This document shows, one piece after another, positions 16,507 to 50,527 of a stretch of DNA of 64,000 nt. The stretch lies in the NCBI RefSeq assembly GCF_000378765.1, contig NZ_KB905344.1, positions 264,332-328,331 on the forward strand, in the 5' to 3' direction. Positions within the stretch are counted from its first letter, which is position 1; the number at the start of each line of letters is the position of its first letter. The stretch comes from Psychroflexus tropicus DSM 15496 (GTDB taxonomy: Bacteria; Bacteroidota; Bacteroidia; Flavobacteriales; Flavobacteriaceae). Under the pieces are notes generated by a model. That model saw only the letters and a list, made by a program, of their open reading frames with translations. It ran no database searches and had not been told where the DNA came from. A program made the translations under genes and the position numbers.

Positions 16507-16520
16507 GTAACCAAAGTTAC
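16507..16520 (+). promoter_or_regulatory. GTAAC-N4-GTTAC operator, TauE/SafE gene
   Basis: Perfect palindrome GTAACCAAAGTTAC. A -7 box TACCTTTG lies at 16543-16550, its centre 33 bp from the palindrome centre, and the start codon is at 16573. One of five perfect copies in the window, all at the same position relative to their genes. The 5-4-5 layout is that of Crp/Fnr-family operators with a changed half-site. Confidence 0.7.
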
Positions 16521-16572
16521 TGCAGTAGCTTTATCTTCGATCTACCTTTGCCCCACAAATGATTCACTTTTC

Positions 16573-17376
16573 ATGGAAATAATAGAACTCTTAGGATTTT
16601 TCGGAGCTTTAGTTATAGGTGTTGTTTTAGGTTTAATCGGTGGAGGGGGCTCTATACTCACCGTACCGGTTTTGGTCTACCTCTTGATGGAAGATCCCGT
16701 CACAGCAACAGCCTACTCTTTATTCGTCGTCGGTACAGCCAGTTTGGTGGGGGCAGTGCGTAACATGCAAAAAGGTCTGGTCGATATCAGAACAGCCATC
16801 GTGTTTGCTATCCCTGCGTTTATCGCCGTCTATGCCACCAGAAAGTATGCAGTTCCCGCTATTCCTGAGTCTATATTTACTTTAGGCGGTTTCGAAGTGA
16901 CTAAAGATATCGGTATCATGTTGTTCTTCGCGCTCATTATGGTACTGGCGTCCTATTCCATGATTAAAAATAAAAAGAAGGATGTAGCCGAAAAAGAAGT
17001 GGAGGTGAAGTATAATTATCCGCTGATTATCATAGAAGGAGTAGTCGTTGGATTTCTTACCGGTATTGTAGGTGCTGGTGGTGGATTTCTGATTATTCCG
17101 GCCCTGGTACTTCTCGCTAAACTTCCTATGAAAAAAGCAGTAGCGACTTCGCTATTGATTATCGCTGTTAAATCCCTGATTGGTTTTCTGGGAGATGTGC
17201 AAAACATCGACATCGACTGGAGTTTCTTAGGTCTCTTCACCGGACTCTCCGTCGTGGGGATCTTTGTAGGCATCTGGCTGAATAAATTCATCGATGGCGC
17301 AAAATTGAAAAAAGGCTTTGGCTGGTTTGTCCTCCTCATGGGGATTTACATTGTCTATAAAGAATTTACTCAATAG
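16573..17376 (+). CDS. TauE/SafE family sulfite/sulfonate exporter-like permease
   Basis: 267 residues with about eight membrane helices in two homologous halves, each starting with the family signature: GLIGGGGSILTVPVLVYLL near residue 20 and GIVGAGGGFLIIPALVLLA near 163. TSUP/TauE proteins export sulfite, sulfoacetate or related anions across the inner membrane. Its operator is shared with a sulfide:quinone reductase-like gene and a peroxiredoxin, which supports a sulfur role. Element E2 starts 13 nt after the stop codon. Confidence 0.9.
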   Translation: MEIIELLGFFGALVIGVVLGLIGGGGSILTVPVLVYLLMEDPVTATAYSLFVVGTASLVGAVRNMQKGLVDIRTAIVFAIPAFIAVYATRKYAVPAIPESIFTLGGFEVTKDIGIMLFFALIMVLASYSMIKNKKKDVAEKEVEVKYNYPLIIIEGVVVGFLTGIVGAGGGFLIIPALVLLAKLPMKKAVATSLLIIAVKSLIGFLGDVQNIDIDWSFLGLFTGLSVVGIFVGIWLNKFIDGAKLKKGFGWFVLLMGIYIVYKEFTQ

Positions 17377-17388
17377 CTTCTATCCTGA

Positions 17389-17531
17389 GGAGCTATTCCC
17401 GCTATCCATTGCAAGTCCGCTCCGCTCTGCTGTAAAAGCTAATCCACCAAAAGAGCTTCCCTTGGTCGCTTTATGGCCATTGCTTTTATATAGCAGAACC
17501 GTTTGCGGGCTTTCCATTTCTATCGGGGCTA
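17389..17531 (+). ncRNA. Dispersed structured 3'-UTR element, copy E2
   Basis: Begins GGAGCTATTCCCGCTATCC and ends CTATCGGGGCTA. The central hairpin pairs CTGCTGTAAAAGC with GCTTTTATATAGCAG, inside which is AAAAGAGCTTCCCTTGGTCGCTTT, the conserved apex. The stem sequence differs from E1 and E3 while pairing is preserved. Confidence 0.65.
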
Positions 17532-17581
17532 GGGGTTTCCATTTAGTATTTTTTATTTCAAATTTTTTATTTCTTATTTTT

Positions 17582-17707
17582 CACTAATCACTAATCACTA
17601 ATCACTAATCACTAATCACTAATCATTAATCACTAATCACTAATCACTAATCACTAATCACTAATCACTAATCACTAATCACTAATCACTAATCACTAAT
17701 CATTAAT
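17582..17707. repeat. Heptanucleotide tandem array (CACTAAT x18)
   Basis: Eighteen consecutive 7-bp units CACTAAT, interrupted only by two CATTAAT variants (about 17624 and 17701), then decaying into CACTACC-CACTACC. It lies between element E2 and the peroxiredoxin promoter and is not in a gene. The near-perfect identity suggests recent slippage and a likely variable copy number. Confidence 0.93.
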
Positions 17708-17781
17708 CACTACCCACTACCTACTTTCTAGCAACAGTCAACTAATCATCAACCTATTTTTTTTAATATTCGCTATCAGGC

Positions 17782-17795
17782 GTAACTATTGTTAC
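17782..17795 (+). promoter_or_regulatory. GTAAC-N4-GTTAC operator, peroxiredoxin gene
   Basis: Perfect palindrome GTAACTATTGTTAC. The -7-like octamer TATATTCG (17818-17825; one mismatch to TAnnTTTG) is centred exactly 33 bp downstream. ATG follows at 17850. Confidence 0.7.
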
Positions 17796-17849
17796 TTAAA
17801 AAACTATAGTTATAACTTATATTCGTACTGTAATTAGAAAGATAAAACT

Positions 17850-18521
17850 ATGGAAGATTTAAAGAATCAAAACACATCAGAACAGCCTATACAAATGCCA
17901 AGAATTGGTGATCAGGCGCCAGATTTTGAAGCGGTGACAACACATGGAAAAATGAAAATGTCTGAATTTGCGCCAGATAAATGGACGGTCATGTTTTCTT
18001 ACCCGGCAGATTTCACCCCCGTATGTACCACAGAAATGAGTGGATTTGCAGAACGTAAATCAGAATTTGAAGCCCTTAATACCGAATTGTTAGGATTGAG
18101 TATCGACTCGATTCATTCACACATCGGATGGGTAGACAGCGTTAAGCAAAACACAGGCGTCTATATGGATTTTCCTATCATCGCCGACATTGATATGAAA
18201 GTATCTAAGCTTTACGGAATGCTGCAACCTAATGAAAGTGAAACCGCAGCTGTAAGAGCCGTTTTCTTTATAGATCCAAGCAAAAAAATAAGACTGATCA
18301 TGTATTACCCACTTAACGTTGGTAGAAATATGGATGAGATCTTAAGGTCATTAGAAGCGCTTCAATTTTCAGATGAAAATTCTGCAGCCTGCCCATTAGA
18401 CTGGAAAAAAGGTGATAAAGGAATCGTTTCTCCTCCAAAGACTTTAAAAGACTATGAGGCTAGATTAGAGGATGATTATGTAGAGAAAACCACCTGGTAC
18501 CTGGCTAAGAAACAATTTTAG
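17850..18521 (+). CDS. 1-Cys peroxiredoxin (Prx6/AhpC-TSA family)
   Basis: 223 residues. The thioredoxin fold has the peroxidatic motif DFTPVCTTEM (Cys near 57), and AVRAVFFIDPSKKIRLIMYYPLNVGRN carries the conserved Arg. The long C-terminal domain (CPLDWKKGDKGIVSPP, then DYEARLEDDY) is that of Prx6-type enzymes, which reduce peroxides with an external thiol donor. The N-terminal 20 residues (NQNTSEQPIQ) are a short extension. Cytosolic. Its operator links it to sulfide oxidation genes. A strong terminator follows. Confidence 0.93.
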   Translation: MEDLKNQNTSEQPIQMPRIGDQAPDFEAVTTHGKMKMSEFAPDKWTVMFSYPADFTPVCTTEMSGFAERKSEFEALNTELLGLSIDSIHSHIGWVDSVKQNTGVYMDFPIIADIDMKVSKLYGMLQPNESETAAVRAVFFIDPSKKIRLIMYYPLNVGRNMDEILRSLEALQFSDENSAACPLDWKKGDKGIVSPPKTLKDYEARLEDDYVEKTTWYLAKKQF

Positions 18522-18544
18522 TTGACATTTATTTTAGTTGATTT

Positions 18545-18575
18545 AAAAGCGGAGATTTCATCTCCGCTTTTTTTT
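18545..18575 (+). terminator. Rho-independent terminator of the peroxiredoxin gene
   Basis: Stem AAAAGCGGAGAT / ATCTCCGCTTTT with a 3-nt loop, continued by a T run to 18575. It separates the peroxiredoxin unit from the next operator 8 nt later. Confidence 0.9.
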
Positions 18576-18582
18576 GCTTCTT

Positions 18583-18596
18583 GTAACTTTGGTTAC
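18583..18596 (+). promoter_or_regulatory. GTAAC-N4-GTTAC operator, cytochrome/carbonic anhydrase unit
   Basis: Perfect palindrome GTAACTTTGGTTAC just after the previous terminator. At the 33-bp position lies only a poor -7 match (TAACTTGC, 18619-18626), the weakest of the set. The start codon is 50 nt after the palindrome, at 18646. Confidence 0.65.
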
Positions 18597-18645
18597 TGTT
18601 CCTTTATCATGCTGAAAGTAACTTGCAGTATCAAATACGATAGTG

Positions 18646-19647
18646 ATGAAATGGATCCTAATAGCCTTCGTCTTGCTTTTAAGCCTGGCGTCCTGCAAGC
18701 AAAAAACCAAAAAACCTGAAGGCGATTATATCAAAATCAAGTCAGAGGATATCAACTCCGAAGACCTGGCAGTAAGAGGAAAAAAACTGATGGAAAACAA
18801 GTGTTACCTCTGTCATAGTCCTAGTGCAGAACAGGCCTCGATGATTGCTCCACCTATGGCAGCCATCAAGGCAAGGTATTCCAGGGATGCCCAAAATAAA
18901 GAAGAGTTTATCAAGCATATTTGGAATTTTGTAGAACGCCCAGCTCAAGAAAAAGTAAAGCTGAAAGGAGCGGTGAAGCGTTTTGGATTGATGCCTTATC
19001 AACCCTATCAACAGAAAGACATTGAGGCTATTGCTGCATTTATGTACGATTATGAGATTGCTCAACCTGAGTGGTTTGAAGCACATTGGCAGAAGCATCA
19101 CGGGAAAAAATACAAACAAAAGGGTAAGTCCGTTAGTTCACTTCCAGCTGCTGAGCAGAGTTATGCTGATATCGGGATGTCTTATGCAAAATCCACCAAA
19201 GCGACTTTAGGTAAAAACCTAATGGGAGCGATACAAAAAGAAGGCGTCCTTCACGCGCTTTCCTTTTGTAATGTGCAGGCGATGCCACTCACAGATTCTA
19301 TGGCCACTAAGCACAACGCGATCATAAAGCGAGTGTCTGATCAGAATAGAAATCCGAAAAATGAGGCAAATCCTGAAGAATTGAAATACATCTCAGTCTA
19401 TAAAGAGGTTTTAAAAAATGGTGAAGAGCCAGAACCAATAGTAGTAGAGAAGGGTGAAAACGTCAATTTTTACTATCCAATAGTGACTAATAACATGTGT
19501 TTGAAATGCCACGGTTCTCCTGGACAGGACATTCATTCCAAAACCTTACAAAGGATTCAGAAACTCTATCCCAACGACAAGGCCATAGGTTATGATGTAA
19601 ATGAAGTGAGAGGGATGTGGAGCATAACTTTTAATACCAATGAATAA
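18646..19647 (+). CDS. Di-heme c-type cytochrome lipoprotein with DUF3365 domain
   Basis: 333 residues from ATG 18646 (a GTG one codon upstream is possible). The N-terminus is a lipoprotein signal (LLLSLASC). An N-terminal cytochrome c domain has CYLCH (about 53-57) and a distal Met in GLMPYQPY. The second half is a DUF3365 (Tll0287-like) heme-PAS domain with CLKCH near 286 and NFYYPIVTNNMC. Such proteins are periplasmic redox carriers or sensors. It overlaps the carbonic anhydrase gene by 8 nt. Likely an electron carrier in the sulfur/redox group. Confidence 0.88.
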   Translation: MKWILIAFVLLLSLASCKQKTKKPEGDYIKIKSEDINSEDLAVRGKKLMENKCYLCHSPSAEQASMIAPPMAAIKARYSRDAQNKEEFIKHIWNFVERPAQEKVKLKGAVKRFGLMPYQPYQQKDIEAIAAFMYDYEIAQPEWFEAHWQKHHGKKYKQKGKSVSSLPAAEQSYADIGMSYAKSTKATLGKNLMGAIQKEGVLHALSFCNVQAMPLTDSMATKHNAIIKRVSDQNRNPKNEANPEELKYISVYKEVLKNGEEPEPIVVEKGENVNFYYPIVTNNMCLKCHGSPGQDIHSKTLQRIQKLYPNDKAIGYDVNEVRGMWSITFNTNE

Positions 19648-20413
19648 ATTAATCTTATCGTTTTCGGCCTTATTTTTAATAATAGGTTGTCAGCAGTCCG
19701 CTGAAGAACATAAAGAAAATAAACATAATTCCAAGCATTGGAGTTACGATGGAGAGACAGGGCCAGAGCATTGGGCCGAACTTGAAGGAGAGACTAATTG
19801 TAATGGAAACTTTCAGTCTCCTATCAACTTGGTAAATTTCAAAACTGCAGAAGACCTCGAGCCAGTGGACTTACATTATGCTGAAGAAACCCTGCTCCAC
19901 GATGTAGTTAACAATGGACATTCGATTCAGTATGATTTTGAACACGGTGATTTTTTGATTCATAAGCAGGATACTTTTCACCTGAAACAGTTTCATTTTC
20001 ATGAACCAGCAGAGCATCTTATCGAAGGGGTACGTTATCCTTTAGAGATTCACCTGGTTCATCAAAATTCGGATACCGAGTTTTTAGTTTTATCTGTCAT
20101 GGTGAAAGAGGGCCAAAATAGCAAGCCTTTTGAGTTACTGGAAAGTTACCTTCCAATCCAAAAAGGGGAGACTAAACTGATTCAGGCACCCTTTGACATG
20201 TCTCAAAACCTACCCGACCAGAAAGGTTATTTTACCTATCAGGGTTCGCTGACTACACCCCCATGTTCTGAAGATGTGACCTGGATTGTCTTTAAAAAAC
20301 CCATAGAGATCGCCCTTGAACAGGTAGAATTGCTAAGATATCTGATGCCTATCAATAATTACAGGGACGAACAGCCTCATCATGGAAGGGTCATCTATTC
20401 TACTTCGTTTTAA
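19640..20413 (+). CDS. Alpha-type carbonic anhydrase, lipoprotein
   Basis: 257 residues, with a lipobox (FLIIGCQQ). Alpha-CA motifs are all present: HWSYDGETGPEHW, QSPINL, zinc ligands in QFHFHEPAEHLI (two His) and EIHLVHQN (third His), and the closing YQGSLTTPPCSEDVTW. It interconverts CO2 and bicarbonate in the periplasm. Start overlaps the cytochrome stop by 8 nt (ATGAATAA), so it is translationally coupled. Confidence 0.93.
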   Translation: MNKLILSFSALFLIIGCQQSAEEHKENKHNSKHWSYDGETGPEHWAELEGETNCNGNFQSPINLVNFKTAEDLEPVDLHYAEETLLHDVVNNGHSIQYDFEHGDFLIHKQDTFHLKQFHFHEPAEHLIEGVRYPLEIHLVHQNSDTEFLVLSVMVKEGQNSKPFELLESYLPIQKGETKLIQAPFDMSQNLPDQKGYFTYQGSLTTPPCSEDVTWIVFKKPIEIALEQVELLRYLMPINNYRDEQPHHGRVIYSTSF

Positions 20414-20455
20414 TCTCTGAAGTATGAATATCAGTACCATAAAAAAACATTGAAT

Positions 20456-21136
20456 ATGAAACGACTAGGACTTATTGGAGGAACCTCCTACCATTCCACC
20501 TTGGAATACTATCGCGAAATCAATAAAAAAGTTGGTGATGAGATTGGCAGTTCACAGAATCCAGAATTGCTCTTATACAGTATCAACATAGAGGTGATGA
20601 GACGGCAGGATGAAGACGAAATCAATAAGACTTATTTAAAAGTAGCGAAAACCCTGGAGCAGGCTGGAGCAGAAGCGCTTATGATCTGCGCCAACACTCC
20701 TCATATGGCTGTAGAGTATGTGCAGCCTAAAATAGGAATTCCATTTCTTCATATCGCCGATGCTGTTGCTGCCGAAGCGAAGCTCCAGGGCCATCAAAGC
20801 TTACTTTTACTGGGAAATAAACCCACGATGACTAAAGCTTTTTTAAAGGACTACCTCGCAAAAACTCATCACCTTCAAATCAGTATCCCTGATGAAGAGA
20901 ACATTAACCGGTCTCATTACTTTGTTTCCAAAGAATTGACGCAGGGACAGTTCACCAAAGAAGCTAAAGAATTTTACATCAAACTAATTTCAGCTCATGA
21001 GACTAAAGTAGATGCCGTGATTCTGGGATGCACAGAACTTCCGATTTTGCTTAAAAAAGAACAGGCTAAACTTCCTTTTTTAAAAACTACAGATTTACAC
21101 ATTCAGGCAGCAGTCGATTTTATATTATCTAAGTAA
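20456..21136 (+). CDS. Aspartate/glutamate racemase family protein
   Basis: 226 residues from ATG 20456 (a TTG two codons earlier is also in frame). Starts KRLGLIGGTSYHSTLEYYR; the two catalytic cysteines of the family are in MICANTPH and LGCTELP. Length and motifs fit PLP-independent amino-acid racemases such as aspartate racemase. It follows the carbonic anhydrase by about 40 nt on the same strand and probably belongs to that unit. Cytosolic. Confidence 0.9.
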   Translation: MKRLGLIGGTSYHSTLEYYREINKKVGDEIGSSQNPELLLYSINIEVMRRQDEDEINKTYLKVAKTLEQAGAEALMICANTPHMAVEYVQPKIGIPFLHIADAVAAEAKLQGHQSLLLLGNKPTMTKAFLKDYLAKTHHLQISIPDEENINRSHYFVSKELTQGQFTKEAKEFYIKLISAHETKVDAVILGCTELPILLKKEQAKLPFLKTTDLHIQAAVDFILSK

Positions 21137-21201: not shown

Positions 21202-21215
21202 GTAACATTTGTTAC
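21202..21215 (+). promoter_or_regulatory. GTAAC-N4-GTTAC operator, SQR-like gene
   Basis: Perfect palindrome GTAACATTTGTTAC. An octamer TATTTTTA (21238-21245; one mismatch to TAnnTTTG) is centred 33 bp away, with ATG at 21261. Confidence 0.7.
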
Positions 21216-21260
21216 ATAATTAATAATGCATTTTGGTTATTTTTATGAAAATTTAGTTTT

Positions 21261-22517
21261 ATGAAGTCAAAGTATTCAGTATTAATTATTGGAGGAGGTA
21301 CGGCAGGAATTATGACGGCGGCACAACTCCTCAAAAAGGATTCCAGCCTTTCTATTGGAATTATTGATCCCGCAGACACACATTATTATCAGCCCGCATG
21401 GACCCTTGTTGGCGGAGGAACTTATAATTATGACGACACAGCTAAACCAATGAAGGATTTAATTCCTGAGGGCGCTGATTGGATTCAGGACTATGCAACT
21501 GGTTTTGATGCCGATAATAATATAGTGAAAACTCAAAATTCTGGTGAGATTGCTTACGATTATTTAGTGGTAGCTCCAGGCTTAGTGATGGATCTCACCT
21601 TGATCGATGGTTTAGAATCAGCTTTAGGTAAAGGTGTGGTGTGTAGTAATTATACCGATCCTAAACATACCTGGGAGGTGATTCAAAACTTTAAAGGAGG
21701 GAATGCGGTATTTACGCAACCTACAACGCCTATCAAATGTGGAGGTGCTCCTCAAAAAATAGCTTATCTTGCCGCCGATCATTTTAGAAAAAATAAAGTA
21801 AATGCCCGAGTGATTTTTGCGACGCCAGGTACCGTGTTGTTTGGTGTAAAAGAAATTCGTGAGACTTTACAGAAAGTAGTCGACCGATACGGCATGCACT
21901 TCAAACCATTTTATGCACCTATTAAGATAGATGCGGATAAAAAAATCATCACTTATAAATACGTTGGAGATGATGAAAACCAATGTGTGACCAACGAAAG
22001 TAAAGAAATTGGAGAGCGTATATCTGGAGAGGCACTTATTGATATGCCTTTTGATATGCTCCACCTGGCACCACCTCAAACCGCTCCAAAATTTATTAAA
22101 GAATCCAACCTGGTCAACCAAGATGGTTGGGTAGATGTTAATATCAATTCTCTACAACATAACACCTATCCCAATATTTTCGCTTTAGGCGATGTAGCGG
22201 CTTTACCAACGGCAAAAACAGGAGCAGCCATCAGAAAACAGGTGCCTGTTGTGGTTGAGAACTTAACGTTTATGATGAATAATAAACCTGCGTCCAACAA
22301 AGATTATAAAGGCTATTCCTCTTGTCCACTAGTGACTGGCTATGGTAAAATGGCCTTAGCAGAGTTTGACTATGAAGGAAACTTCACTCCAGACCCTAAA
22401 CTAAAACAAATGCTGGTCTTTAATTCGGCTAAAGAACATTGGAGACTTTGGATGTTAAAAAAATACGGTTTACCTTATTTGTACTGGAACAAAATGATGA
22501 AAGGGGAAGCCGTGTAA
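21261..22517 (+). CDS. Sulfide:quinone oxidoreductase-like FAD enzyme
   Basis: 418 residues. An N-terminal FAD motif (LIIGGGTAGIMTAAQLL) is followed by HYYQPAWTLVGGG, a pattern of type II SQR. Redox cysteines are in VVCSNYT (about 130) and IKCGGAPQK (about 160). The second FAD motif is NIFALGDVAALPTAKTGAAIRKQ, and the C-terminus has YKGYSSCPLVTGYGKMALAEF and a membrane-binding tail (LKKYGLPYLYWNKMM). SQRs oxidise sulfide at the inner membrane and pass electrons to quinone. Regulation with a TauE exporter and peroxiredoxin supports this. A terminator and E3 follow. Confidence 0.9.
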   Translation: MKSKYSVLIIGGGTAGIMTAAQLLKKDSSLSIGIIDPADTHYYQPAWTLVGGGTYNYDDTAKPMKDLIPEGADWIQDYATGFDADNNIVKTQNSGEIAYDYLVVAPGLVMDLTLIDGLESALGKGVVCSNYTDPKHTWEVIQNFKGGNAVFTQPTTPIKCGGAPQKIAYLAADHFRKNKVNARVIFATPGTVLFGVKEIRETLQKVVDRYGMHFKPFYAPIKIDADKKIITYKYVGDDENQCVTNESKEIGERISGEALIDMPFDMLHLAPPQTAPKFIKESNLVNQDGWVDVNINSLQHNTYPNIFALGDVAALPTAKTGAAIRKQVPVVVENLTFMMNNKPASNKDYKGYSSCPLVTGYGKMALAEFDYEGNFTPDPKLKQMLVFNSAKEHWRLWMLKKYGLPYLYWNKMMKGEAV

Positions 22518-22538
22518 TTAGTGTTTAAATTCAAATTT

Positions 22539-27177: not shown

Positions 27178-27774
27178 ATGATTGAGACTAAATTTTTAGA
27201 TGAATTTGATGCTGAACTTCTTGAAGTTGAGAAAGGAGAGGTAATTTTTGAATATGGCAGTAAAGCCCAATTTTACTTCCAAGTGAAGTCTGGAGAGGTT
27301 AAGATGAATAATTTTAATAGAGATGGGAAGGAGTTTATACAAGGCATTTTTTATTCTGGACAAAGTTTTGGAGAACCTCCTTTGTTTGCAGACGTAGCAT
27401 ATCCTGCTGCTGCAGAGGCCATAACCGATGCTGAAATTTATCGCCTCCCTAAAACCAACTTTTTTAAATTGCTTGAGCAATATCCAAAAGTTCACCTTAA
27501 AATATCAGAAGGATTGGCCTCCCGTCTTTACTATAAAGCTATTATGGCTTCGGAGATATCGTCTCAGGATCCAGAACATCGTATACTCAGATTATTGGAT
27601 TATACCAAGAAACATATTCAAAATCTTGAAGCACACCAGATCTTAGAGGTGGATTTGACTAGACAACAAATAGCAGATCTTACAGGTTTGAGGGTAGAAA
27701 CCGTGATAAGAGCTTGTAAAGCTTTGGAAAAAAAAGGGGAAATTAGGATTGTTAAACGCAAATTGCTAAGGTAA
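27178..27774 (+). CDS. Crp/Fnr family transcriptional regulator
   Basis: 198 residues. A cyclic-nucleotide-binding-like beta roll (about 15-115, VKSGEVKMNNFNRDGKEFIQGIFYSGQSFGEPPLF) is followed by the long dimer helix and a winged HTH whose recognition helix is TRQQIADLTGLRVETVIRACKAL. The VE..IR pattern resembles Fnr-type readers of TGA half-sites. There are no N-terminal cysteines for an Fe-S cluster, so sensing by haem or another ligand as in DNR/NnrR is plausible. It lies between the copper receptor and NO-detoxification genes that carry TGA-N6-TCA sites, so it is the best candidate regulator. Confidence 0.9.
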   Translation: MIETKFLDEFDAELLEVEKGEVIFEYGSKAQFYFQVKSGEVKMNNFNRDGKEFIQGIFYSGQSFGEPPLFADVAYPAAAEAITDAEIYRLPKTNFFKLLEQYPKVHLKISEGLASRLYYKAIMASEISSQDPEHRILRLLDYTKKHIQNLEAHQILEVDLTRQQIADLTGLRVETVIRACKALEKKGEIRIVKRKLLR

Positions 27775-28572: not shown

Positions 28573-29034
28573 ATGCCTAATGAACCCTTAAAGCGCCACG
28601 AAGCCCTTAAAAACCTGAGTCGAGAGCATCACGATGGACTTATCTTTGCTTTGCGATTACAAAAGGGTGTTGCCAAAAGAGCAAGGCTTGAGGAGATGGA
28701 AAACTATGCTATCTGGTTTTGGAAACAACATCTATTACCACACTTCAAAATGGAAGAACTACAGCTTTTTCCAATGCTTAAAGAAGATTATGAACTAGTC
28801 AAAACAGCAAGACAACAACATAGAGATTTGGAATCGCTTTTTAATACACAACCTAAAACTTATAAAGATTTTAAAGCGATTTATGAGTTGCTTCAACTTC
28901 ACATTAGGCTAGAAGAACGAGAGCTGTTCAATTGGATTCAGGAGGAATTAAATAGTGAAGAGCTAGCAAAATTTCAAGCTATACATGACTCTCAGAGCAC
29001 TTGTGAGGTGTGGCCTCATCCGTTCTGGAAGTGA
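28573..29034 (+). CDS. Hemerythrin-domain protein
   Basis: 153 residues forming one four-helix bundle with di-iron ligand motifs in order: REHHDGLIFA, KQHLLPHFKMEELQLFP, RQQHRDLE and LHIRLEERELF. It begins 30 nt after the globin gene and is likely in the same unit. Such proteins bind O2, NO or handle iron. Cytosolic. Confidence 0.88.
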   Translation: MPNEPLKRHEALKNLSREHHDGLIFALRLQKGVAKRARLEEMENYAIWFWKQHLLPHFKMEELQLFPMLKEDYELVKTARQQHRDLESLFNTQPKTYKDFKAIYELLQLHIRLEERELFNWIQEELNSEELAKFQAIHDSQSTCEVWPHPFWK

Positions 29035-34972: not shown

Positions 34973-34973
34973 T

Positions 34974-41433: not shown

Positions 41434-43917
41434 TTAAAACTTAAACTGTAAGGTGGCATAAAAACTACGCGGTAAGGCAGGAATTATACCCGGCCCCGGA
41501 TAACCTGTTGCACGTTGAGTAAAATAGGCATTGTCCAGCATATTATTGACGCCGGTTTCTAGGGTCCACTTTCGGTAACGATAGGAAAAGGACAAATCAA
41601 AAACTCCATAGGCTGGTATGCTACCAATAATACCACTTTGATTGTCATTGACATCCTGAGGCGCATTGGTGGCGTCTGTAAATTGCTTAGACAAATAAGA
41701 ATACTGGAAATCCATCAGGAAATTCTTGTAGCCTGCTCGTATTCCGGTTCTTAGGTTAAAGTTAGGTACAAAAGGAAGTTCATTGCCTTCTACACCTGGC
41801 TCTTCAGAATCGGTGAATTCAGATTGTGTTACAGCCAGGTTCACGTAAGTGTTCAGTCTAAGTTCGTTTTGTTCCTCAAAAAATGTCTCTTTTATGTTCC
41901 AGTCAACTAAACTCTCCAAACCATAAATGAGAGCATTACCGATATTACCTCTAAACCTGACGACACGCCCCGCCTCAACTTCCTCTCCAAAAGCATTGAT
42001 TCGGGTACCTACTTTTTGAACTTCAGAAATGATATCATTATACCAGAGCCCAAAGACATTGGCATCGTAGGAAAGGATGTTTTTATAGCGTCCTCTATAC
42101 CCCAGATCTGCTGTAAACCCGTCTTCATCTTTAATGTTGGGATCTACCTGAAAGGAAGGGTTTACAATTCTAATATCGTTAAACGTTACCGAGCGGTAGT
42201 TTCTAGATATGTTACCGTAAACTTCAGCGTATTTTTTAGGCTTATAACTTACTCCAACACCACCTAAGACAATCATACGCTCTCGTTCGCGCTGATCGAC
42301 AAAGGTAGAATCCTGTAAGGCATTTCCCGCCAGGTCTCTGTTCACAGAACGAAAGGTGCCTTCTGCTTCAGTTTTGATATACTCCAGTCGAAAGCCAGGC
42401 GTTACTGAGAGCTTATCGTTGAGGTAAAAAATATTTTCTCCAAATAGAGCAACATTCAGATTAGGGAAATCAAAGTCAGATTGTCTCAGCTCTGTTGGAA
42501 GTTCTGAAACGGGATAATCTATAAAATTAAAATTGGCGTCAGCCTCTCGAGTTCCAGGGCCTTGTCGTTGTCCGTTTTTAGATTGATAGTATTTACTTCC
42601 CAGAAGTAAAGTAGAGTTGAAGTCTTCTCCTAACTTATATTCGGTCAGGTATCGGAATTCTGCCCCCCAGTTCACAAACTCTCCGCGTTCTAGATCTCGA
42701 GGTTCGTCGAGATTATCAACTTGAGATACCCTATCGGTTCGAAAGCCTATAGCTTCTCTGGACGAATTCATGCCCCATCCAATCAAACTGATTTTAGTTT
42801 TTTCAGAGAGTTGGTGATTGAATTTGGCTGTCAACAAATTCCAGTTGACTTTGAACCAGTTTCTAGTTCGGTTGCTGAAGGTGGGATCTTCATAAAACTG
42901 CACATCAGTCAATCCTCCAGCTTGCTGAGCCAGATAGCTCATGTGAGTGTATTCAAGACCTATTTTCGTGTCCTCATTAAATTGATAATTCAGGCTGGTA
43001 AAGGCATTAAAAGCTTCAAGGCTCATATTATCTCTAGGGGCCTGGTCAAGGTTGTTTTTATAATTGATGTAGGTATAATGACTAAACTTACCGTTAGTCC
43101 CACTAAAGCTATTAAAGGTTGAGTAGCCGCAGTTGCTGTCGAAGGATTGTCGGGTGACTACTTCAAAAGGCTGTTTTGATGGCGATTTAAGTTTAAAATT
43201 GATTAAACCTCCAAATTGGGTACCGTATTGTAAAGAAGCAGCCCCTCTTACGATTTGAATTTCCTCGAGAGCTTCAGCAGGCGGGGTGTAATAGCTTTCG
43301 GGATAACCTAGTACATCCGCACTGATGTCATAGCCGTTCTGCCTGGTATTGAAATTGGAGGTTCTGTTGGGATCCAGTCCTCGACCACCAATAGACAGCT
43401 GCAGTCCGCAGTTGGTGCTTTGGTAAATATTGAGCCCTGCGACCTGAGCGTAAATTTGGCGGGCATTAGAAGTTGAGGTGTTACCCACCATTTGACCTAC
43501 GAGAACAACTTCGGTTTTCTTTCCGGCATTGATTTGGAGCTCTTCCACATCGTTAAGTCGTCTCAATTCAAACAGTTCTCTCTTTTTGGCCTGGACGACG
43601 ACTTCTGAAAGATTAATAGACTGCTTAAGCTTAAACATTAAATCTAAATCAGCCTGTAAGTCGACCACCTTTTCGTCGTACGAATAATTATCGATAAGAA
43701 ACACAAAGGTGCGTTGTCCAGCTTCTAAATCCTCGAATTTGAAATTCCCTGCCTCATCGCTCATTGCAGTTTTCCCGGAGGCGGTATCCCATACCTGAAC
43801 GTTTGACATCGGTTTGTTGTTCTCTTGACTCACCACTTTACCAGATAATTCATATTGAGCCTGAAGGCTTAATGACAGTAGACTTAGCAGTGAAATTAAA
43901 ATTAGTTTAAAACCCAT
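41434..43917 (-). CDS. TonB-dependent receptor, FecA-like, of the imelysin operon
   Basis: 827 residues from ATG 43917, which overlaps the HTTM stop by 11 nt (the frame extends to 43971 without a signal peptide). Signal peptide, carboxypeptidase-like domain (ELSGKVVSQENNKPMSNVQV), plug with SIGGRGLDPNRTSN and LEEIQIVRGAASLQYGTQFGG, and barrel ending SFYATLQFKF. The association with imelysin and DUF4856 indicates uptake of iron (free or citrate-type complex); this is inferred, not read from a ligand motif. Confidence 0.88.
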   Translation of the reverse strand: MGFKLILISLLSLLSLSLQAQYELSGKVVSQENNKPMSNVQVWDTASGKTAMSDEAGNFKFEDLEAGQRTFVFLIDNYSYDEKVVDLQADLDLMFKLKQSINLSEVVVQAKKRELFELRRLNDVEELQINAGKKTEVVLVGQMVGNTSTSNARQIYAQVAGLNIYQSTNCGLQLSIGGRGLDPNRTSNFNTRQNGYDISADVLGYPESYYTPPAEALEEIQIVRGAASLQYGTQFGGLINFKLKSPSKQPFEVVTRQSFDSNCGYSTFNSFSGTNGKFSHYTYINYKNNLDQAPRDNMSLEAFNAFTSLNYQFNEDTKIGLEYTHMSYLAQQAGGLTDVQFYEDPTFSNRTRNWFKVNWNLLTAKFNHQLSEKTKISLIGWGMNSSREAIGFRTDRVSQVDNLDEPRDLERGEFVNWGAEFRYLTEYKLGEDFNSTLLLGSKYYQSKNGQRQGPGTREADANFNFIDYPVSELPTELRQSDFDFPNLNVALFGENIFYLNDKLSVTPGFRLEYIKTEAEGTFRSVNRDLAGNALQDSTFVDQRERERMIVLGGVGVSYKPKKYAEVYGNISRNYRSVTFNDIRIVNPSFQVDPNIKDEDGFTADLGYRGRYKNILSYDANVFGLWYNDIISEVQKVGTRINAFGEEVEAGRVVRFRGNIGNALIYGLESLVDWNIKETFFEEQNELRLNTYVNLAVTQSEFTDSEEPGVEGNELPFVPNFNLRTGIRAGYKNFLMDFQYSYLSKQFTDATNAPQDVNDNQSGIIGSIPAYGVFDLSFSYRYRKWTLETGVNNMLDNAYFTQRATGYPGPGIIPALPRSFYATLQFKF

Positions 43918-45268
43918 AAATCGTTTCGTCAAATGGTAAAATCCATTCTTTGTGTTGCCAGGTATCTTCAAACTCAGTCAGATCGATGTCTGGATTGATG
44001 TATCTTTTACTTAATCTTCCATTAAGGGCGATAAAGCTGTTGACATAAATTTCAGGATCGTCGATACCTTTTTGTTTATAATAATCTTCTAAATAGTGCG
44101 CAAATTCCAGGATAAAATCAGGCTGAATGCGCATTTGCTTTTGTTGATATTCAGTTAGGAATTCGTAATTCTCTACATAAAACCATTTTCCATTTTCGGG
44201 ATTGACTACTTTAAATTGTACATAACCTCCTTTCTCCATTAGCATAACCCTCCAAGAAAAACGATAGCCCTCCTCGGTCCAGAACAACTCATCTGGATAA
44301 AGCAAATGTCTGAATGGAAAAATCAGTTGAAAACTAAAAAACAGGATAAAGAAGCCTGCGATTAATTTGTTTTTAAGGGTAGGGATCCAATTCAAAATGG
44401 ATACTTCCTGTTGAGGTTTTATCCTGAAGATTTTTCGTAAGAAACGGATGATTTTTTCATGAAAAGAAGCATCAAAGAAAATAAGCGTTGAACAGATCAT
44501 AACGTATGGAAAAATACCAATCGGAAATAAAACCCTGGTCATGATATGAAAAACGACGACCAGAATAAAAGCTAAGAGTCGGGTTCGCTTGTAAAACAGT
44601 AAAAAAGGAATCGACAGGTCGTAAAGCATTCCACTCCAGCTCATCACGTAATGCATCCATTCCATTTGAAACAGGTCTCCCAGCACCGGTAGGTCGTAAC
44701 GGGAAGGCAGCCAGATTTTGAGAGGCATAGCTTCTAGTAACCATTCTGAATTAATCTTAGCCAGCCCCGCGTAGAAATAAACGATACTCAACATGAACTG
44801 AATAGCAAAAATGCTATATCGCGGTATCATCGAAAAAGCAATGCGCTTATTCTTCTTGGCATCTATTGAAAAATAGGAATTAGCCGGTAAAAAAATCAGC
44901 AGTAAGCTGATGATACTTACGAAGTAATAATGATTGAGGTAATACGTCTTGTCAATAAGCTCACAGTAGGTAAAGCTCAAAAAAAACAGAATGGCAGATA
45001 ATCGGTATTTATAACCCAGAGTAATTCCTAGCGCTGCAATAAAGGAAACCACATAAAGCAAGTAAGTGTATTCGCCCAATGACTCTACAAATTCAAAGCC
45101 ATAATACTTAAAATTGAACTGGGGTTGTACGTAATATTTATCCACCCAGCCCTGTAAGACAAACCTCAAGGTGGTATAAAGCATTAAGCTCCCAAACAAA
45201 ACCCTAAAAACCGCAAGAGGTGCGGCTTTTACAGGGGTCTTTAAATATGTAAGGATACTATTTATCAA
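43907..45268 (-). CDS. HTTM-domain membrane protein
   Basis: 453 residues. Horizontally transferred transmembrane (HTTM) domain, related to vitamin-K-dependent gamma-carboxylase: LAVFRVLFGSLMLYTTLRF at the start, then YLNHYYFVSIISLLLIFLP and IQFMLSIVYFYAGLAKINSEWL with the conserved Lys. About seven helices and a C-terminal soluble part. In Bacteroidota it is found beside imelysin genes; biochemical role here is unknown. Confidence 0.88.
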   Translation of the reverse strand: MINSILTYLKTPVKAAPLAVFRVLFGSLMLYTTLRFVLQGWVDKYYVQPQFNFKYYGFEFVESLGEYTYLLYVVSFIAALGITLGYKYRLSAILFFLSFTYCELIDKTYYLNHYYFVSIISLLLIFLPANSYFSIDAKKNKRIAFSMIPRYSIFAIQFMLSIVYFYAGLAKINSEWLLEAMPLKIWLPSRYDLPVLGDLFQMEWMHYVMSWSGMLYDLSIPFLLFYKRTRLLAFILVVVFHIMTRVLFPIGIFPYVMICSTLIFFDASFHEKIIRFLRKIFRIKPQQEVSILNWIPTLKNKLIAGFFILFFSFQLIFPFRHLLYPDELFWTEEGYRFSWRVMLMEKGGYVQFKVVNPENGKWFYVENYEFLTEYQQKQMRIQPDFILEFAHYLEDYYKQKGIDDPEIYVNSFIALNGRLSKRYINPDIDLTEFEDTWQHKEWILPFDETIYGF

Positions 45269-45329
45269 TACAAAAGTTGAATTTTACAACATTGATTTTT
45301 CAGGTTGCAAAGATAACCTTATTCAAGGT

Positions 45330-46466
45330 TTAATCTCCGTCTCCACTATCAAATTCTAAAGCTATACTCAGTGCAGAAAACATATCAGATTTTAGATAAA
45401 CTACATTATCTTGAAGACTCTCGAAAGCCTGAAGCATACTTGTATTATCGGTATTGATTTGTTCAAAGAAATTTGAATTCAAGGCACTGATAAAAGACTC
45501 AGAGACTTCATATTGCTCATTGATTAGGGTTGATAAGTTTTCACCTTCTTTCATCGTGTTTAAGAAATCAAGGTAATCGGCAAAGCTCTCAGCAGAGCTG
45601 TCTACGTTAGCAGCAGTGCCATTAAAAAAGTCTTGATGTGCTCTTAAAGCCTCTAAACTTAAACGACCAGATAGGTCTTTGTTGTACAGAGCTTCCACAA
45701 GTCTTGGTTGTGGATCGCCTCCAGAATAAACACCTGCTGGAAATCCGATTTTTCCATTTCTCAATCTTACTTCATAATATTCCATAAACACATTGGCCAT
45801 ACGATTAGTCGAGCTATTAGCAGATGAACCAGAATTTTCTACAAAAACATCTCTGTAACTCGTTTCCCAGGCTTGCAGTACGTCACTGGACAAGCTGTTA
45901 ATTCTGTTCACAACATCTTCAAGGTACTGTCTTCTGTTATCAGCGTTTGGAGCAGTCGTGTAGAGCTCCAAGATTTGAGCGTCGTTTTCTGCAGCTCCAA
46001 AAAGCAAATAATCTAAGGCTGGAAAACCCTGCTCGTCATTTAGGTTGGGATCCAGAAGGTTATAATTTGAGTTCTCTATAAAACTCTCAATATTAGTTGT
46101 GTTAGTTGGATAAGTGTTTAGAAAACTTCTCATCACCACATCTTGTGCTGGACCTATATTGAAAATTGCAACATTTTGCCAAGAAATATAAGCCTCCTCC
46201 CATTCTTCTCTCAAGCTTGTCAGATTCTCCATGCTCGGATCGTCTACAAAAGCATCAGAAGCCTCTTTAAGAGTATTGGTTTCATTAGAGAAATTTTCAT
46301 AAGATGGAATGATAATATTGTCTGCCCAGTTAACGAGCATTAAACTTCTATCGAAGTTATTGGCATTACCATTGTCATCACCGTTGGAGTCATCGTCTGA
46401 GCAGGCGATAAAGGTACTGGAAATGACCAGTATGATGAATGGTAAAATAAGCTTATTAATTTTCAT
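45330..46466 (-). CDS. Imelysin family lipoprotein
   Basis: 378 residues with lipobox STFIACS and a D/N-rich linker. The imelysin fold is recognised by LVNWADNIIIPSYENF near residue 43, WEEAYISWQNVAIFNIGPA, and GFPALDYLLFG in place of the classical GxHxxE. Members are iron-regulated surface or periplasmic proteins of iron uptake systems. Separated by 57 nt from the DUF4856 gene and 61 nt from HTTM in a single operon. Confidence 0.92.
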   Translation of the reverse strand: MKINKLILPFIILVISSTFIACSDDDSNGDDNGNANNFDRSLMLVNWADNIIIPSYENFSNETNTLKEASDAFVDDPSMENLTSLREEWEEAYISWQNVAIFNIGPAQDVVMRSFLNTYPTNTTNIESFIENSNYNLLDPNLNDEQGFPALDYLLFGAAENDAQILELYTTAPNADNRRQYLEDVVNRINSLSSDVLQAWETSYRDVFVENSGSSANSSTNRMANVFMEYYEVRLRNGKIGFPAGVYSGGDPQPRLVEALYNKDLSGRLSLEALRAHQDFFNGTAANVDSSAESFADYLDFLNTMKEGENLSTLINEQYEVSESFISALNSNFFEQINTDNTSMLQAFESLQDNVVYLKSDMFSALSIALEFDSGDGD

Positions 46467-47660: not shown

Positions 47661-47686
47661 TTTAGTTTGATTTGTGATTATTTCTG

Positions 47687-47727
47687 CAAATATATAGAAT
47701 GAATCTAGATAACAAAGCTTATCTAGA
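47687..47727 (-). promoter_or_regulatory. Promoter of the imelysin operon with 24-bp palindrome
   Basis: TCTAGATAA-N6-TTATCTAGA (47704-47727) is a perfect 9-bp inverted repeat. A minus-strand -7 box TATATTTG is at 47687-47694, so the palindrome covers the -33 region and fits a repressor site. The gene set points to an iron-responsive regulator such as Fur; the sequence is not a classical Fur box. Confidence 0.6.
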
Positions 47728-48014
47728 CTAAATATGAATAAAGTTTATTAAATTTTAAGTATTATTTATTGATGCTTTTATTGCCAATGAAACCTTAACA
47801 ATTTTAGGTTTAAGAGACTCTTTTGATAATCAAATATTTATACATCAAAAGTCAGCCAAGGTGGCAAGAGCGAGGTAAATCCAAATTCATTTATAAGATT
47901 TATAATATTCACAAATTATAACTCGCTACTTTCAAAATTTGTCTCTTGTTAATTCAATACTGATGAGCGTTATACAAACTAATCAGAATTATCTAGTGAA
48001 TAAAGCATTGATAA

Positions 48015-48059
48015 GTAACATAAGTAGCTAAATTATCTAAGGGCTAATATTTATTTTTG
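48015..48059 (+). promoter_or_regulatory. cydAB promoter with degenerate GTAAC-N4-GTTAC-like site
   Basis: GTAACATAAGTAGC (48015-48028) has one perfect half and two mismatches in the other. A -7 box TATTTTTG (48052-48059) is centred 34 bp away, the same spacing as the perfect sites. The match alone is weak; the spacing makes it worth keeping. Confidence 0.45.
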
Positions 48060-48075
48060 TAAAAAATTGTTGATT

Positions 48076-49452
48076 ATGGATGTTGAGATTCTCTCCCGGA
48101 TTCAGTTTGCCTTTACCGTAGCCTTTCACTATATCTATCCGCCATTAAGTATTGGATTAGGACTTATTATGGTCGTTTTTGAAAGCATGTATTTGCGCAC
48201 AAAAAAGAAAGAATACGAGGTACTAGCTAAATTTTGGACCAAAATTTTTGCGATTACTTTTGGAATAGGTGTGGTGACCGGTATTGTGATGGAGTTTGAA
48301 TTTGGAACCAATTGGGCGACATACTCGCGTTATGTTGGTGATATTTTTGGAAGCGCCCTCGCTGCCGAAGGTATTTTTGCCTTTGCGCTCGAAAGTAGTG
48401 CGTTGGGAGTTTTACTCTTCGGATGGAACCGTGTAAAGCCTTGGGTTCACCTTGTTGCCACCTGGGGAGTATTCCTGGGTTCTATGTTTTCAGCGGTATG
48501 GATTGTGGTGGCCAATTCCTGGCAGCAAACCCCAGCAGGTTATCATATCGTGGGCGAAGGTATGCAGGCCAGAGCTGAAATTGTCGATTTCTGGGCTATG
48601 GTTTTTAATCCCTCTTCAGTAGATCGACTTACTCACGTTTGGCTTGGAGCTTTCTTAGCCGGAACTTTTTTGATTTTAAGTGTTCATGCTTACTATATAT
48701 TGAAAGGACGCTATGTGGTTCTTTCCAAAAAAGCTTTTAAAATCACCTTAGTTGTGGCGGCCATTTGTTCACTCGCTCAATTATTTACCGGACATAGTTC
48801 TGCAGAAGGGGTGTCTGAAAATCAACCGGCTAAGCTGGCTGCTATGGAGGGCCACTTTGAAGCAGAAGCACCAGCCGACTTATACTTACTTGGCTGGGTG
48901 GATAAAGAAAATAAAGAAACGACAGGGCTCAAAATTCCAGGGGGCTTATCTTTTATGTTAGATCAGGATTTTGAAACACCAGTCACCGGTCTTAACGCTT
49001 TTCCAGTTGAAGATCAGCCTTCTCAGGTGAATGCTGTGTTTCAATTGTATCACCTAATGGTAGCCATCGGAATGTTTCTCATCGCCCTGAGTTTATTCGC
49101 GCTTTGGCAATGGAAACGAGGTAAGCTGTTCGAAAAGAAATGGCTGATGTGGACCTTTGTCTTCACCGCTTTACTGCCGCAGTTGGCCAATCAGTTTGGT
49201 TGGTTTACGGCCGAACTCGGACGGCAGCCTTGGGTAGTATACGGGCTTTTAAGAACTTCAGACGCCCTGTCTAAAAGTGTACAGGCTAATCAGGTCTTGT
49301 TTTCTCTAATCCTGTTTTTCATCGTGTATTTTGTGTTGTTTTTGCTTTTCATATATCTGATGAACAAAAAAATACAAAGTGGTCCGTCGAGCGATATCGA
49401 TTTTGATCAGGGTAGTTTAAATAAAGAAATTGCAGACGTAGTCTCAAAATAA
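48076..49452 (+). CDS. cydA: Cytochrome bd oxidase subunit I
   Basis: 458 residues from ATG 48076 (TTG codons upstream are in frame but unnecessary). Nine-helix core with FAFTVAFHYIYPPLSIG (haem b595/d region His), GIVMEFEFGTNWATYSRYVGDIFGSALAAEG and GWFTAELGRQPWVVYGLLRT. The Q loop is short, as in CIO-type enzymes, compared with the longer E. coli CydA. It is the quinol oxidase for low oxygen and resists NO and sulfide. Confidence 0.95.
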   Translation: MDVEILSRIQFAFTVAFHYIYPPLSIGLGLIMVVFESMYLRTKKKEYEVLAKFWTKIFAITFGIGVVTGIVMEFEFGTNWATYSRYVGDIFGSALAAEGIFAFALESSALGVLLFGWNRVKPWVHLVATWGVFLGSMFSAVWIVVANSWQQTPAGYHIVGEGMQARAEIVDFWAMVFNPSSVDRLTHVWLGAFLAGTFLILSVHAYYILKGRYVVLSKKAFKITLVVAAICSLAQLFTGHSSAEGVSENQPAKLAAMEGHFEAEAPADLYLLGWVDKENKETTGLKIPGGLSFMLDQDFETPVTGLNAFPVEDQPSQVNAVFQLYHLMVAIGMFLIALSLFALWQWKRGKLFEKKWLMWTFVFTALLPQLANQFGWFTAELGRQPWVVYGLLRTSDALSKSVQANQVLFSLILFFIVYFVLFLLFIYLMNKKIQSGPSSDIDFDQGSLNKEIADVVSK

Positions 49453-49465
49453 TAAAATTCGATTT

Positions 49466-50503
49466 ATGGAAACGTTTTTAGGAATAGATTATCCCACCTG
49501 GTGGTTTTTAGTAGTAGGAGGACTCTTTTCTGGGTATGCTATTTTAGATGGCTTTGATTTTGGCGCTGGAGCCTGGCATATGTTTTTTAAACAAAATTCG
49601 AGTAGAGAAACGGCTTTAAAAGCCATTGACCCGACCTGGCATGGGAACGAAGTCTGGTTGGTGATAGGGGGAGGTACTTTATTCGCAGGTTTCCCTGTGT
49701 TTTACGGAACCCTGTTTTCTGCAATGTATACGCCCTTTATCTTATTTCTTCTCTTCATTATATTTCGAGGGATTTCTATCAAATTCAGAAATATGGAAGA
49801 GATGCTCTGGTGGAGGCGAATGTGGGATTGGGGATATTCCATCTCCAGCATCATGCTGGCTTTTTTATTGGGTGTAGTTCTTGGAAATATCCTTAATGGT
49901 ATGCCACTGGATGAAAACTTTGAATATACAGGACGTGGATTCTTCGAGTTTCTTAATCCGTTTTCAATCTTGGTTGGCGTTACGAGTTTAGCCTTGTTTA
50001 TGATGCACGGTGCCATTTATCTGCTGCTAAAAACTGAAGGGAAGTTGTACAACCGTATTCAGCAGTTTCTTAAAATAGGAATAGCTTTTTTTATCATTTC
50101 TTATGTGGTCACTACCAGTTACGGGTTCTTTAATCTAGAGCACCTTTTGGTGGTGTTTGAGAATAACCAAATTCTTTTTGTAGTTCCGTTTTTGGTCTTT
50201 CTGAGCATCGCTAACGTTCCCCGCCTGGCCAGTAAAAAGAAATATGGCTGGGCTTTTATTTTTACTAGTCTGACCATTGCATTATTACTGGTAATCGTTG
50301 CCTTTGAATTATATCCGCGTTTGCTTTTATCCAATGAGGTTGCAGATAATAGTATCACCATTTACAATGCAGCTGCTTCAACCAAAACCCTAAAAATTAT
50401 GATGGGATTTGTGGCTGTGGGTGGCCCTTTGGTACTATTGTATAGCTATTTTGTCTATAGAACCTTTTGGGGTAAAGTAAAATCGGATACTGAGGGTTAT
50501 TAG
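49466..50503 (+). CDS. cydB: Cytochrome bd oxidase subunit II
   Basis: 345 residues with about eight membrane helices. GYAILDGFDFGAGAWHMFF at the start, then WHGNEVWLVIGGGTLFAGFP and LVGVTSLALFMMHGAIYLLLKTEG are CydB signatures. It lies 13 nt after cydA. Partner of CydA in the membrane. Confidence 0.95.
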   Translation: METFLGIDYPTWWFLVVGGLFSGYAILDGFDFGAGAWHMFFKQNSSRETALKAIDPTWHGNEVWLVIGGGTLFAGFPVFYGTLFSAMYTPFILFLLFIIFRGISIKFRNMEEMLWWRRMWDWGYSISSIMLAFLLGVVLGNILNGMPLDENFEYTGRGFFEFLNPFSILVGVTSLALFMMHGAIYLLLKTEGKLYNRIQQFLKIGIAFFIISYVVTTSYGFFNLEHLLVVFENNQILFVVPFLVFLSIANVPRLASKKKYGWAFIFTSLTIALLLVIVAFELYPRLLLSNEVADNSITIYNAAASTKTLKIMMGFVAVGGPLVLLYSYFVYRTFWGKVKSDTEGY

Positions 50504-50513
50504 TCTTTCGAGC

Positions 50514-50527
50514 GTAACCCTTGTTAC
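50514..50527 (+). promoter_or_regulatory. GTAAC-N4-GTTAC operator, porin gene
   Basis: Perfect palindrome GTAACCCTTGTTAC 10 nt after cydB. The -7-like octamer CAATTTTG (50550-50557, one mismatch) is centred 33 bp away, ATG at 50575. Confidence 0.7.

Follow-up and report, generated by a model that had tools for sequence, protein, structure and literature searches.

What reads the short palindromes that stand before sulfur, peroxide and porin genes in Psychroflexus tropicus DSM 15496? The window analysed here, a 64,000-nucleotide stretch of its genome (G000:C3:264332-328331; 3.0 Mb in 16 contigs), contains exactly five copies of GTAAC-N4-GTTAC and no others even at one mismatch, which bears out the count and the positions given in a preliminary description that proposed a Crp/Fnr-type regulon. 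We consider it highly probable that these palindromes are class II operators of a Crp/Fnr activator encoded outside the window (G000:C2:920498-921130), which would switch on sulfur-oxidation and detoxification genes in response to a sulfane-sulfur signal. The case was built in silico, from the operators, their spacing, the co-occurrence of sites and regulator, gene adjacency and the matching of a regulator residue to the operator sequence.

Palindromes and promoter geometry

The five palindromes exceed what shuffling of the window yields at up to one mismatch (mean 1.18, maximum 4 in 100 shuffles), and all five lie in promoters, as had been described. At each of them an octamer, scored by its matches to the six fixed bases of the TAnnTTTG -7 box, begins exactly 29 bases past the palindrome centre (33 bp centre to centre), in agreement with the original observation; the octamer at 18619, already noted as poorer, indeed retains 4 of the 6 fixed bases. 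The placement upstream of start codons also stood, the gap from palindrome end to start codon (45-54 nt) being slightly shorter than the proposed 50-60 bp. Likewise, the chance rate of about one per Mb assumed at the outset was somewhat low (1.7 per Mb for a reversed-pattern control), but five sites in 34 kb are still far above chance.

In the whole genome, covered by pattern searches and individual stretches with weak sites elsewhere possibly missed, 10 exact palindromes were found versus 5 for the reversed pattern. Seven are in promoters, namely the five window sites, C2:921137, which is located 3 bases past the stop of the Crp/Fnr gene and ahead of heavy-metal-associated-domain (HMA) and metallo-beta-lactamase-rhodanese genes, and C5:27405, upstream of a pair of sulfur-transport (PF04143) genes. 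The latter two share the octamer spacing of the window, and six of the seven promoter sites carry an octamer of at least 5/6 exactly 29 bases from the centre, the seventh (18583) having 4/6. An eighth site, with one mismatch and the same spacing, lies upstream of a DUF983 gene (C5:129939). The three intragenic palindromes (C2:378888, C3:177633 and C4:4481), in genes that from their translations are presumably thiolase-like, electron-transfer-flavoprotein-alpha-like and histidine-kinase-like, are taken as chance: a 5/6 octamer is missing at +29 in all three, although at C3:177633 one begins at +30, and the reversed pattern itself gives 5 matches.

A scan of relatives, as the preliminary description had suggested, extended this pattern. 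We searched 120 genomes of the family for the palindrome, with one mismatch allowed, at the fixed distance from a -7 octamer, and obtained 449 matches in 98 genomes, versus 35 for the reversed pattern. The sites are not scattered through coding regions, since by the script's criterion 4 of the 150 examined sites (of 449) fell inside coding sequence, and homologues of TauE, dioxygenase-rhodanese, YeeE, peroxiredoxin, cytochrome-Tll0287 and sulfide:quinone reductase (SQR) genes keep both site and spacing in their promoters. In 80 named loci around regulator relatives, amounting to ~0.98 Mb, there are 169 exact palindromes, and 156 of them show a -7 octamer (at least 5/6) at +29 on at least one strand, three on both; no other offset between 8 and 61 exceeds 15. 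The base following the palindrome is T in 64% of the promoters of these loci rather than the symmetric A; TGTAAC-N4-GTTACA is thus not a full 16-bp palindrome in most promoters.

The standard position of a class II Crp/Fnr activator is -41.5. In the available text of a transcription start site map of Flavobacterium psychrophilum (PMC9723704), TAnnTTTG is placed at -12 to -5, which together with the octamer at +29 puts the palindrome centre at -41.5. With start sites taken from F. psychrophilum, the operators would thus be centred as in class II Crp/Fnr-activated promoters, and we infer activation of the genes behind them from this position. The likeness to class II activation by CRP and FNR comprises the fold, the palindrome and the -41.5 centre, and one difference is the Bacteroidota -7 box.

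A candidate Crp/Fnr regulator and its putative operators

The protein that best fits these sites is a Crp/Fnr protein of 211 amino acids, assigned to the superfamily by PF00027 (36.9 bits) and PF13545 (32.7 bits), both above cut-off. Its stop codon is followed, 3 bp on, by a palindrome and then by metallo-beta-lactamase-rhodanese (persulfide-dioxygenase-like) genes. The preliminary description, which saw no obvious regulator in the window, overlooked a window Crp/Fnr gene (27178-27774), which with C2:19856 (a receiver-Crp fusion) and C2:882863 accounts for the other three of the four cNMP (cyclic nucleotide)-binding proteins of the genome. The closest named regulator among the matches listed is the 82% identical orthologue of Psychroflexus gondwanensis, for which the AlphaFold model has a Crp/Fnr fold (mean predicted local distance difference test score 84.8), residues 81-90 being least certain (block mean 54).

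Sites and regulator occur together. A relative (E <=1e-8) is present in 103 of the 120 family genomes. At least 588 places were confirmed to encode a relative. When strong regulators were defined by a best match of >=150 bits, a cut set after seeing the score list, sites were found in 94 of 95 genomes with a strong regulator (444 sites, control 30) versus 4 of 25 without (5 sites, control 5; Fisher p 2e-18, ancestry ignored); with any match (E <=1e-8) the proportions are 97/103 versus 1/17. The two are also adjacent: among the 76 regulator open reading frames read in the 80 named loci (the script missed 4), 58 have a palindrome with at most one mismatch within 250 bp past the stop (in 56 cases accompanied by a -7 box at +29), and nine have one upstream.

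Among 247 genomes of the phylum, 99 have a match to the regulator profile (E 1e-20) and 71 to the site pattern, which exceeds its control in the family (85 versus 9; 27 genomes) and among the 34 remaining genomes of the class (40 versus 13). Outside the class, single sites still adjoin the regulator despite no overall excess. Regulator and site are followed by YeeE, YeeE, dioxygenase-rhodanese, TauE and rhodanese genes in locus L305, by rhodanese and thioredoxin genes in L301 and L302, and by a thioredoxin gene in L300; in L307, from another family of the same class, TauE, YeeE, YeeE and dioxygenase genes follow. Among the 19 non-own loci read, no GTAAC-type site was present near the regulator in L310, L311, L313, L314, L315, L317 and L318 (Glu183) or in L312 and L316 (Val183).

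A probable master regulator can be singled out through a correlated change, in related bacteria, of the operator sequence and of the residue predicted to read it. According to the available text of Rodionov et al. (PMC1274295), CRP reads its operator with residues 180, 181 and 185, and the HcpR2 motif was accounted for by changes at these positions. Their equivalents in the present regulator are R182, V183 and R187, both arginines being found in all 204 distinct regulators. In a first set, Glu183 was present in 13 of 166 regulators, and several of their neighbourhoods contained GTGAY/RTCAC halves, found partly by eye. The prediction that residue 183 sets the operator was then fixed before 345 genomes of the class were searched with a Glu-type alignment and 23 unread loci were examined for sites whose -7 box stands at 28 to 30, classed by position 3 of the left half and the base paired with it in the right half. 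Val regulators had five A/T sites and one G/T site, with no such site in 2 of 8 loci, and Glu regulators five G/C sites and one G/T site, with none in 10 of 15; in total, 10 of the 12 sites were pure as predicted and 2 mixed.

Of the 204 distinct regulators, 162 have Val183 and 42 Glu183. Sites near Val183 regulators (117 of the 162 have one) are GTAAC/GTTAC in 119 of 126 cases, versus 0 of 19 near Glu183 regulators, where every site has at least one GTGAY/RTCAC half (9 mixed G/T, 7 G/C and 3 mixed A/C). On a FastTree tree computed with the recognition helix left out, five changes of residue 183 are the minimum. These sequence comparisons provide a strong but not tree-proof indication that the candidate regulator reads these operators.

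In genus g121 (L349-L360), the regulators read have Glu183 and the operators are mostly mixed, with one GTAAC and one GTGAY/RTCAC half, as if these regulators stood between two specificities.

Targets, putative signal and rival explanations

Genes behind the operators were classed in two sets. In the first, 150 of the 449 family sites from 39 genomes, classed by best BLAST hit to the own-genome set, dioxygenase-rhodanese genes account for 23 sites, TauE for 20, YeeE for 15, CydA for 3, SQR for 2, and peroxiredoxin, cytochrome-Tll0287, HMA and regulator genes for 1 each; 11 sites are without an open reading frame and 72 were unclassified at this step. Clustering of the 72, with one member per named group identified by Pfam and singletons not all named, produced DUF983 (14), outer-membrane efflux (10), rhodanese (8), thioredoxin-9 (4), a small group of unknown proteins (4), a further pyridine-nucleotide-disulfide reductase (3), SulP (3) and another small group (3), besides pairs that include a molybdopterin oxidoreductase (sulfite-oxidase-like), DsrE-like, Porin O/P and fatty-acid hydroxylase proteins; the rest are singletons. 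The second set, 182 site orientations with a -7 box at +29 in the 80 named loci, is biased to regulator neighbours because the loci were chosen around the regulator; it comprises dioxygenase-rhodanese (48), TauE (39), YeeE (14), rhodanese (12), DUF983 (9), regulator (7), peroxiredoxin, cytochrome-Tll0287 and SulP (6 each), HMA, fatty-acid hydroxylase, SQR-like reductase and efflux (3 each), CydA (2) and SQR (1), with 5 unclassified and 15 without an open reading frame. The label persulfide dioxygenase denotes Lactamase_B and Rhodanese domains plus a sub-threshold match to the bifunctional sulfurtransferase/dioxygenase model.

The recurring theme of these targets is sulfide/persulfide/sulfite metabolism. 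The initial proposal that the regulon links sulfur, peroxide and porin genes is supported, although peroxiredoxin and porins look like accessories. Control of sulfide/persulfide oxidation genes, as expected of a persulfide-sensing regulator, is predicted in silico.

DUF983 genes lie behind the operator in the own genome (L299 3018-3483, C5) and in L309; in L309, L311 and L312, which come from other families, such a gene immediately precedes that of the regulator. This recurrence hints at a part for DUF983 in the sulfide response.

The regulator has cysteines only at positions 77, 83 and 84. By alignment to NtcA and comparison with the CRP sequence and its cassette consensus, the segment CAMTLSCC (77-84) falls at the position of the CRP phosphate-binding cassette. 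Cys77 is present in 204, Cys83 in 191 and Cys84 in 171 of the 204 distinct regulators. The 80 named loci were picked by two peptide patterns, one containing Cys77 and the other the S-R-V-V helix, which makes cysteine conservation there partly circular; among the 124 regulators outside these loci, the three cysteines are found in 124, 115 and 95, respectively. Cys77 may thus be the sensing core and the Cys83/Cys84 pair a refinement.

A regulator dimer would bind TGTAAC-N4-GTTAC centred at -41.5, overlapping the -33 region, and contact sigma-A RNA polymerase reading the -7 TAnnTTTG box. It would switch on sulfide oxidation (SQR), persulfide and thiosulfate handling (the metallo-beta-lactamase-rhodanese persulfide-dioxygenase-like protein, rhodaneses and YeeE sulfur transporters) and the disposal of sulfite and sulfate (TauE, the sulfite-oxidase-like enzyme and SulP), with peroxiredoxin, thioredoxins, cytochromes, porins and DUF983 as partners. 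Sulfide-derived sulfane sulfur is the probable signal, which Cys77 would read together with Cys83/Cys84 in a loop standing in for the cAMP phosphate-binding cassette; for binding, ligand and cysteine chemistry alike, this is what we infer from the comparisons above. With less assurance, we favour a wider view, in which a sulfide/persulfide-responsive Crp/Fnr regulator, its cassette turned into a cysteine loop (C77-x5-C83-C84), would govern one class II sulfide-oxidation and sulfite-export regulon across a Bacteroidota class, its operator repeatedly retuned from GTAAC to GTGAC through V183->E.

Several observations weigh against a sulfane-sulfur regulon read by this protein. Relatives without Cys83/84 exist (L300-L303, L306, L307) and adjoin thioredoxin, rhodanese or, in L307, TauE-YeeE-YeeE-dioxygenase genes, which means that a disulfide or polysulfide pair cannot be universal. 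For some targets, among them DUF983, fatty-acid hydroxylase and aldehyde dehydrogenase, a role in sulfur metabolism is not evident, and neither set contains a target from another genome that matches the porin at 50575. A nearby site by the criteria used was found in only 19 of the 42 Glu regulators. For residue-operator matching, the Fisher p of 2e-18 takes no account of ancestry; an independent-pair test had 3 supported pairs only, too small a number for significance, of which on average 2.7 were concordant and none opposed (median p 0.25). Moreover, 17 family genomes have no regulator match and 11 of them are <=2.2 Mb, so that genome size explains part of the co-occurrence, and in the phylum beyond the class the site pattern was not above control (26 matches versus 32).

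Three rival explanations were weighed. The regulator may be correctly identified and yet be a redox or iron-sulfur/oxygen sensor of the FNR kind rather than a sulfide/persulfide sensor, which we regard as unlikely: the targets do include cytochrome bd, cytochrome c, peroxiredoxin and thioredoxin, and with three cysteines close together the protein could hold a cluster or, on exposure to peroxide, form disulfides, but dioxygenase-rhodanese, TauE and YeeE genes lead both sets of targets, the regulator neighbours sulfur genes outside the family as well (L305, L307, L317), and only Cys77 is invariant.

Still less probable is an HcpR2-type regulon, in which nitric oxide or nitrosative stress would be sensed through heme and the sulfur genes would be secondary. 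The Crp/Fnr character of the GTAAC operator, claimed in the preliminary description, is upheld, but the motif is not wholly new: the available text of PMC1274295 (2005), the only place where the string GTAACnnnnGTTAC appeared in the literature searched, gives GTAACnnnnGTTAC as the predicted operator consensus of HcpR2, a Crp/Fnr protein, with hcp neighbours in Clostridium, Bacteroides, Thermotogales and Treponema. HcpR2 controls hcp, whereas the own genome encodes no hcp protein (PF03063) and has a sulfur regulon instead, and hcp is not among the downstream genes named (singletons were not all named). HcpR2 is also reported there to have Pro at CRP position 181, where Val or Glu is found here. 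Identity with HcpR2, considered for the identical consensus, was rejected for the absence of hcp and for this residue. No chain named HcpR occurs among the PDB matches to E 0.01, in which 9day, a 'putative transcriptional regulator' (20 bits), was not identified further.

It is very improbable that another Crp/Fnr protein of the genome reads the palindromes, such as that of window gene 27178-27774, which lies between the sites and is the one of the three others whose distribution was compared with them: this distribution does not follow the sites, with orthologues of >=150 bits in only 26 of 120 genomes and 0, 0, 1, 0 and 1 sites in the five genomes that have it without a strong regulator, and its recognition helix V-E-T-V-I-R is FNR-like and would presumably predict TTGAT-like sites.

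Returning to the sulfur-responsive candidate, NtcA is among its nearest named relatives in sequence and structure and has R-V at the recognition positions; its operator GTA-N8-TAC contains the present motif, its ligand is 2-oxoglutarate and its targets are nitrogen genes. The regulator nevertheless scores 46.9 of the 244.95 bits of the NtcA equivalog cut-off. It is neither CRP proper (48.4 of 266 bits), the cAMP cassette being replaced by cysteines, nor FNR proper (24.6 of 228 bits), having no further cysteines for an FNR-type cluster. Its best PDB match by both sequence and fold is 3dv8 (EUBREC_1222), an uncharacterised Crp/Fnr structure from Eubacterium rectale with a C-x5-C motif at the same place. 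CstR, SqrR/BigR and FisR control sulfide-oxidation and sulfur-transfer genes and sense through cysteines (PMC9774590, available text), as the present regulator would, but belong to the CsoR, ArsR and Fis/sigma-54 families, not Crp/Fnr. The accessible part of this 2022 reactive-sulfur review names CstR, SqrR, BigR, PigS and FisR, with no Crp/Fnr sensor and without the word Bacteroid, and that of the report on PgRsp (PMC6955866) contains no operator or sensor-cysteine data to compare. Our literature search, with subscription journals outside it, returned no report of this regulon or of a Crp/Fnr sulfide/persulfide regulator. What is new here is the target set and probably the sensor, a Crp/Fnr regulon with this operator type being of a known kind.

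In the sea, Bacteroidota play a major part in breaking down sulfated algal polymers, and they have to cope with sulfide and sulfite. If the proposed regulon is real, it adds a Crp/Fnr activator to the CsoR, ArsR and sigma-54 types known to read sulfane sulfur, and one operator and one regulator would locate sulfide-response genes in hundreds of genomes, providing functional hints for DUF983 and other orphan genes. It would also offer a natural experiment in which regulator and operators change specificity together.

Features of the window

Pfam agrees with the gene identities first proposed from the translations, the match of the porin being weak (Table 1). The cydAB genes before the last palindrome were identified by PF01654 and PF02322.

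Table 1. Putative operators, -7 boxes and the genes behind them, in window positions; fixed bases are those of TAnnTTTG, and +29 is the distance of the first base from the palindrome centre
Feature	Position	Strand	Remarks
Putative operator palindrome GTAACCAAAGTTAC	16507..16520	+	TauE gene promoter; exact match; -7 box at +29
-7 box TACCTTTG	16543..16550	+	6/6 fixed bases; +29
TauE/SafE sulfite-exporter family gene	16573..17376	+	PF01925, E 1.1e-45
Putative operator palindrome GTAACTATTGTTAC	17782..17795	+	peroxiredoxin promoter; exact match
-7 box TATATTCG	17818..17825	+	5/6; +29
1-Cys-type peroxiredoxin	17850..18521	+	PF00578, PF10417; NF009668 above cut-off
Putative operator palindrome GTAACTTTGGTTAC	18583..18596	+	promoter of cytochrome/carbonic anhydrase/racemase genes; exact match
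Weak -7 box TAACTTGC	18619..18626	+	4/6, below the 5/6 listing threshold; +29
Cytochrome c and Tll0287-like domain protein	18646..19647	+	PF00034, PF11845; ATG at 18646, GTG at 18643 alternative start
Carbonic anhydrase, eukaryotic-type (alpha) family	19640..20413	+	PF00194, E 4.3e-47
Asp/Glu racemase family protein	20456..21136	+	PF01177; cysteate racemase CuyB NF052483 sub-threshold, 72 bits versus cut-off 190
Putative operator palindrome GTAACATTTGTTAC	21202..21215	+	SQR promoter; exact match
-7 box TATTTTTA	21238..21245	+	5/6; +29
SQR-like flavoprotein	21261..22517	+	PF07992; nearest NCBIfam type III SQR (selenoprotein subtype), 208 bits, under cut-off 525
Putative operator palindrome GTAACCCTTGTTAC	50514..50527	+	downstream of cydAB, upstream of porin; exact match
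-7 box CAATTTTG	50550..50557	+	5/6; +29
OprD-like outer-membrane porin, weak match	50575..51933	+	PF03573, E 5.7e-4, 19.5 of 25 bits (below curated cut-off)

The window Crp/Fnr gene at 27178-27774, with its FNR-like recognition helix, lies near a hemerythrin-domain gene (28573-29034). Elsewhere in the window, a gene for a vitamin K-dependent gamma-carboxylase-like membrane protein (HTTM and lumenal domain; 43907-46466) adjoins an imelysin gene. Two repeats were also found in intergenic sequence. Nearly nineteen copies of the 7-base unit TCACTAA stand ahead of the peroxiredoxin promoter (17581-17712), and an element starting with GAGCTATTCCCGCT is present at 17390, 22573 and 51934, as well as at 213 with one mismatch; with 4 window copies versus 0.01 expected, it looks like a dispersed intergenic repeat.

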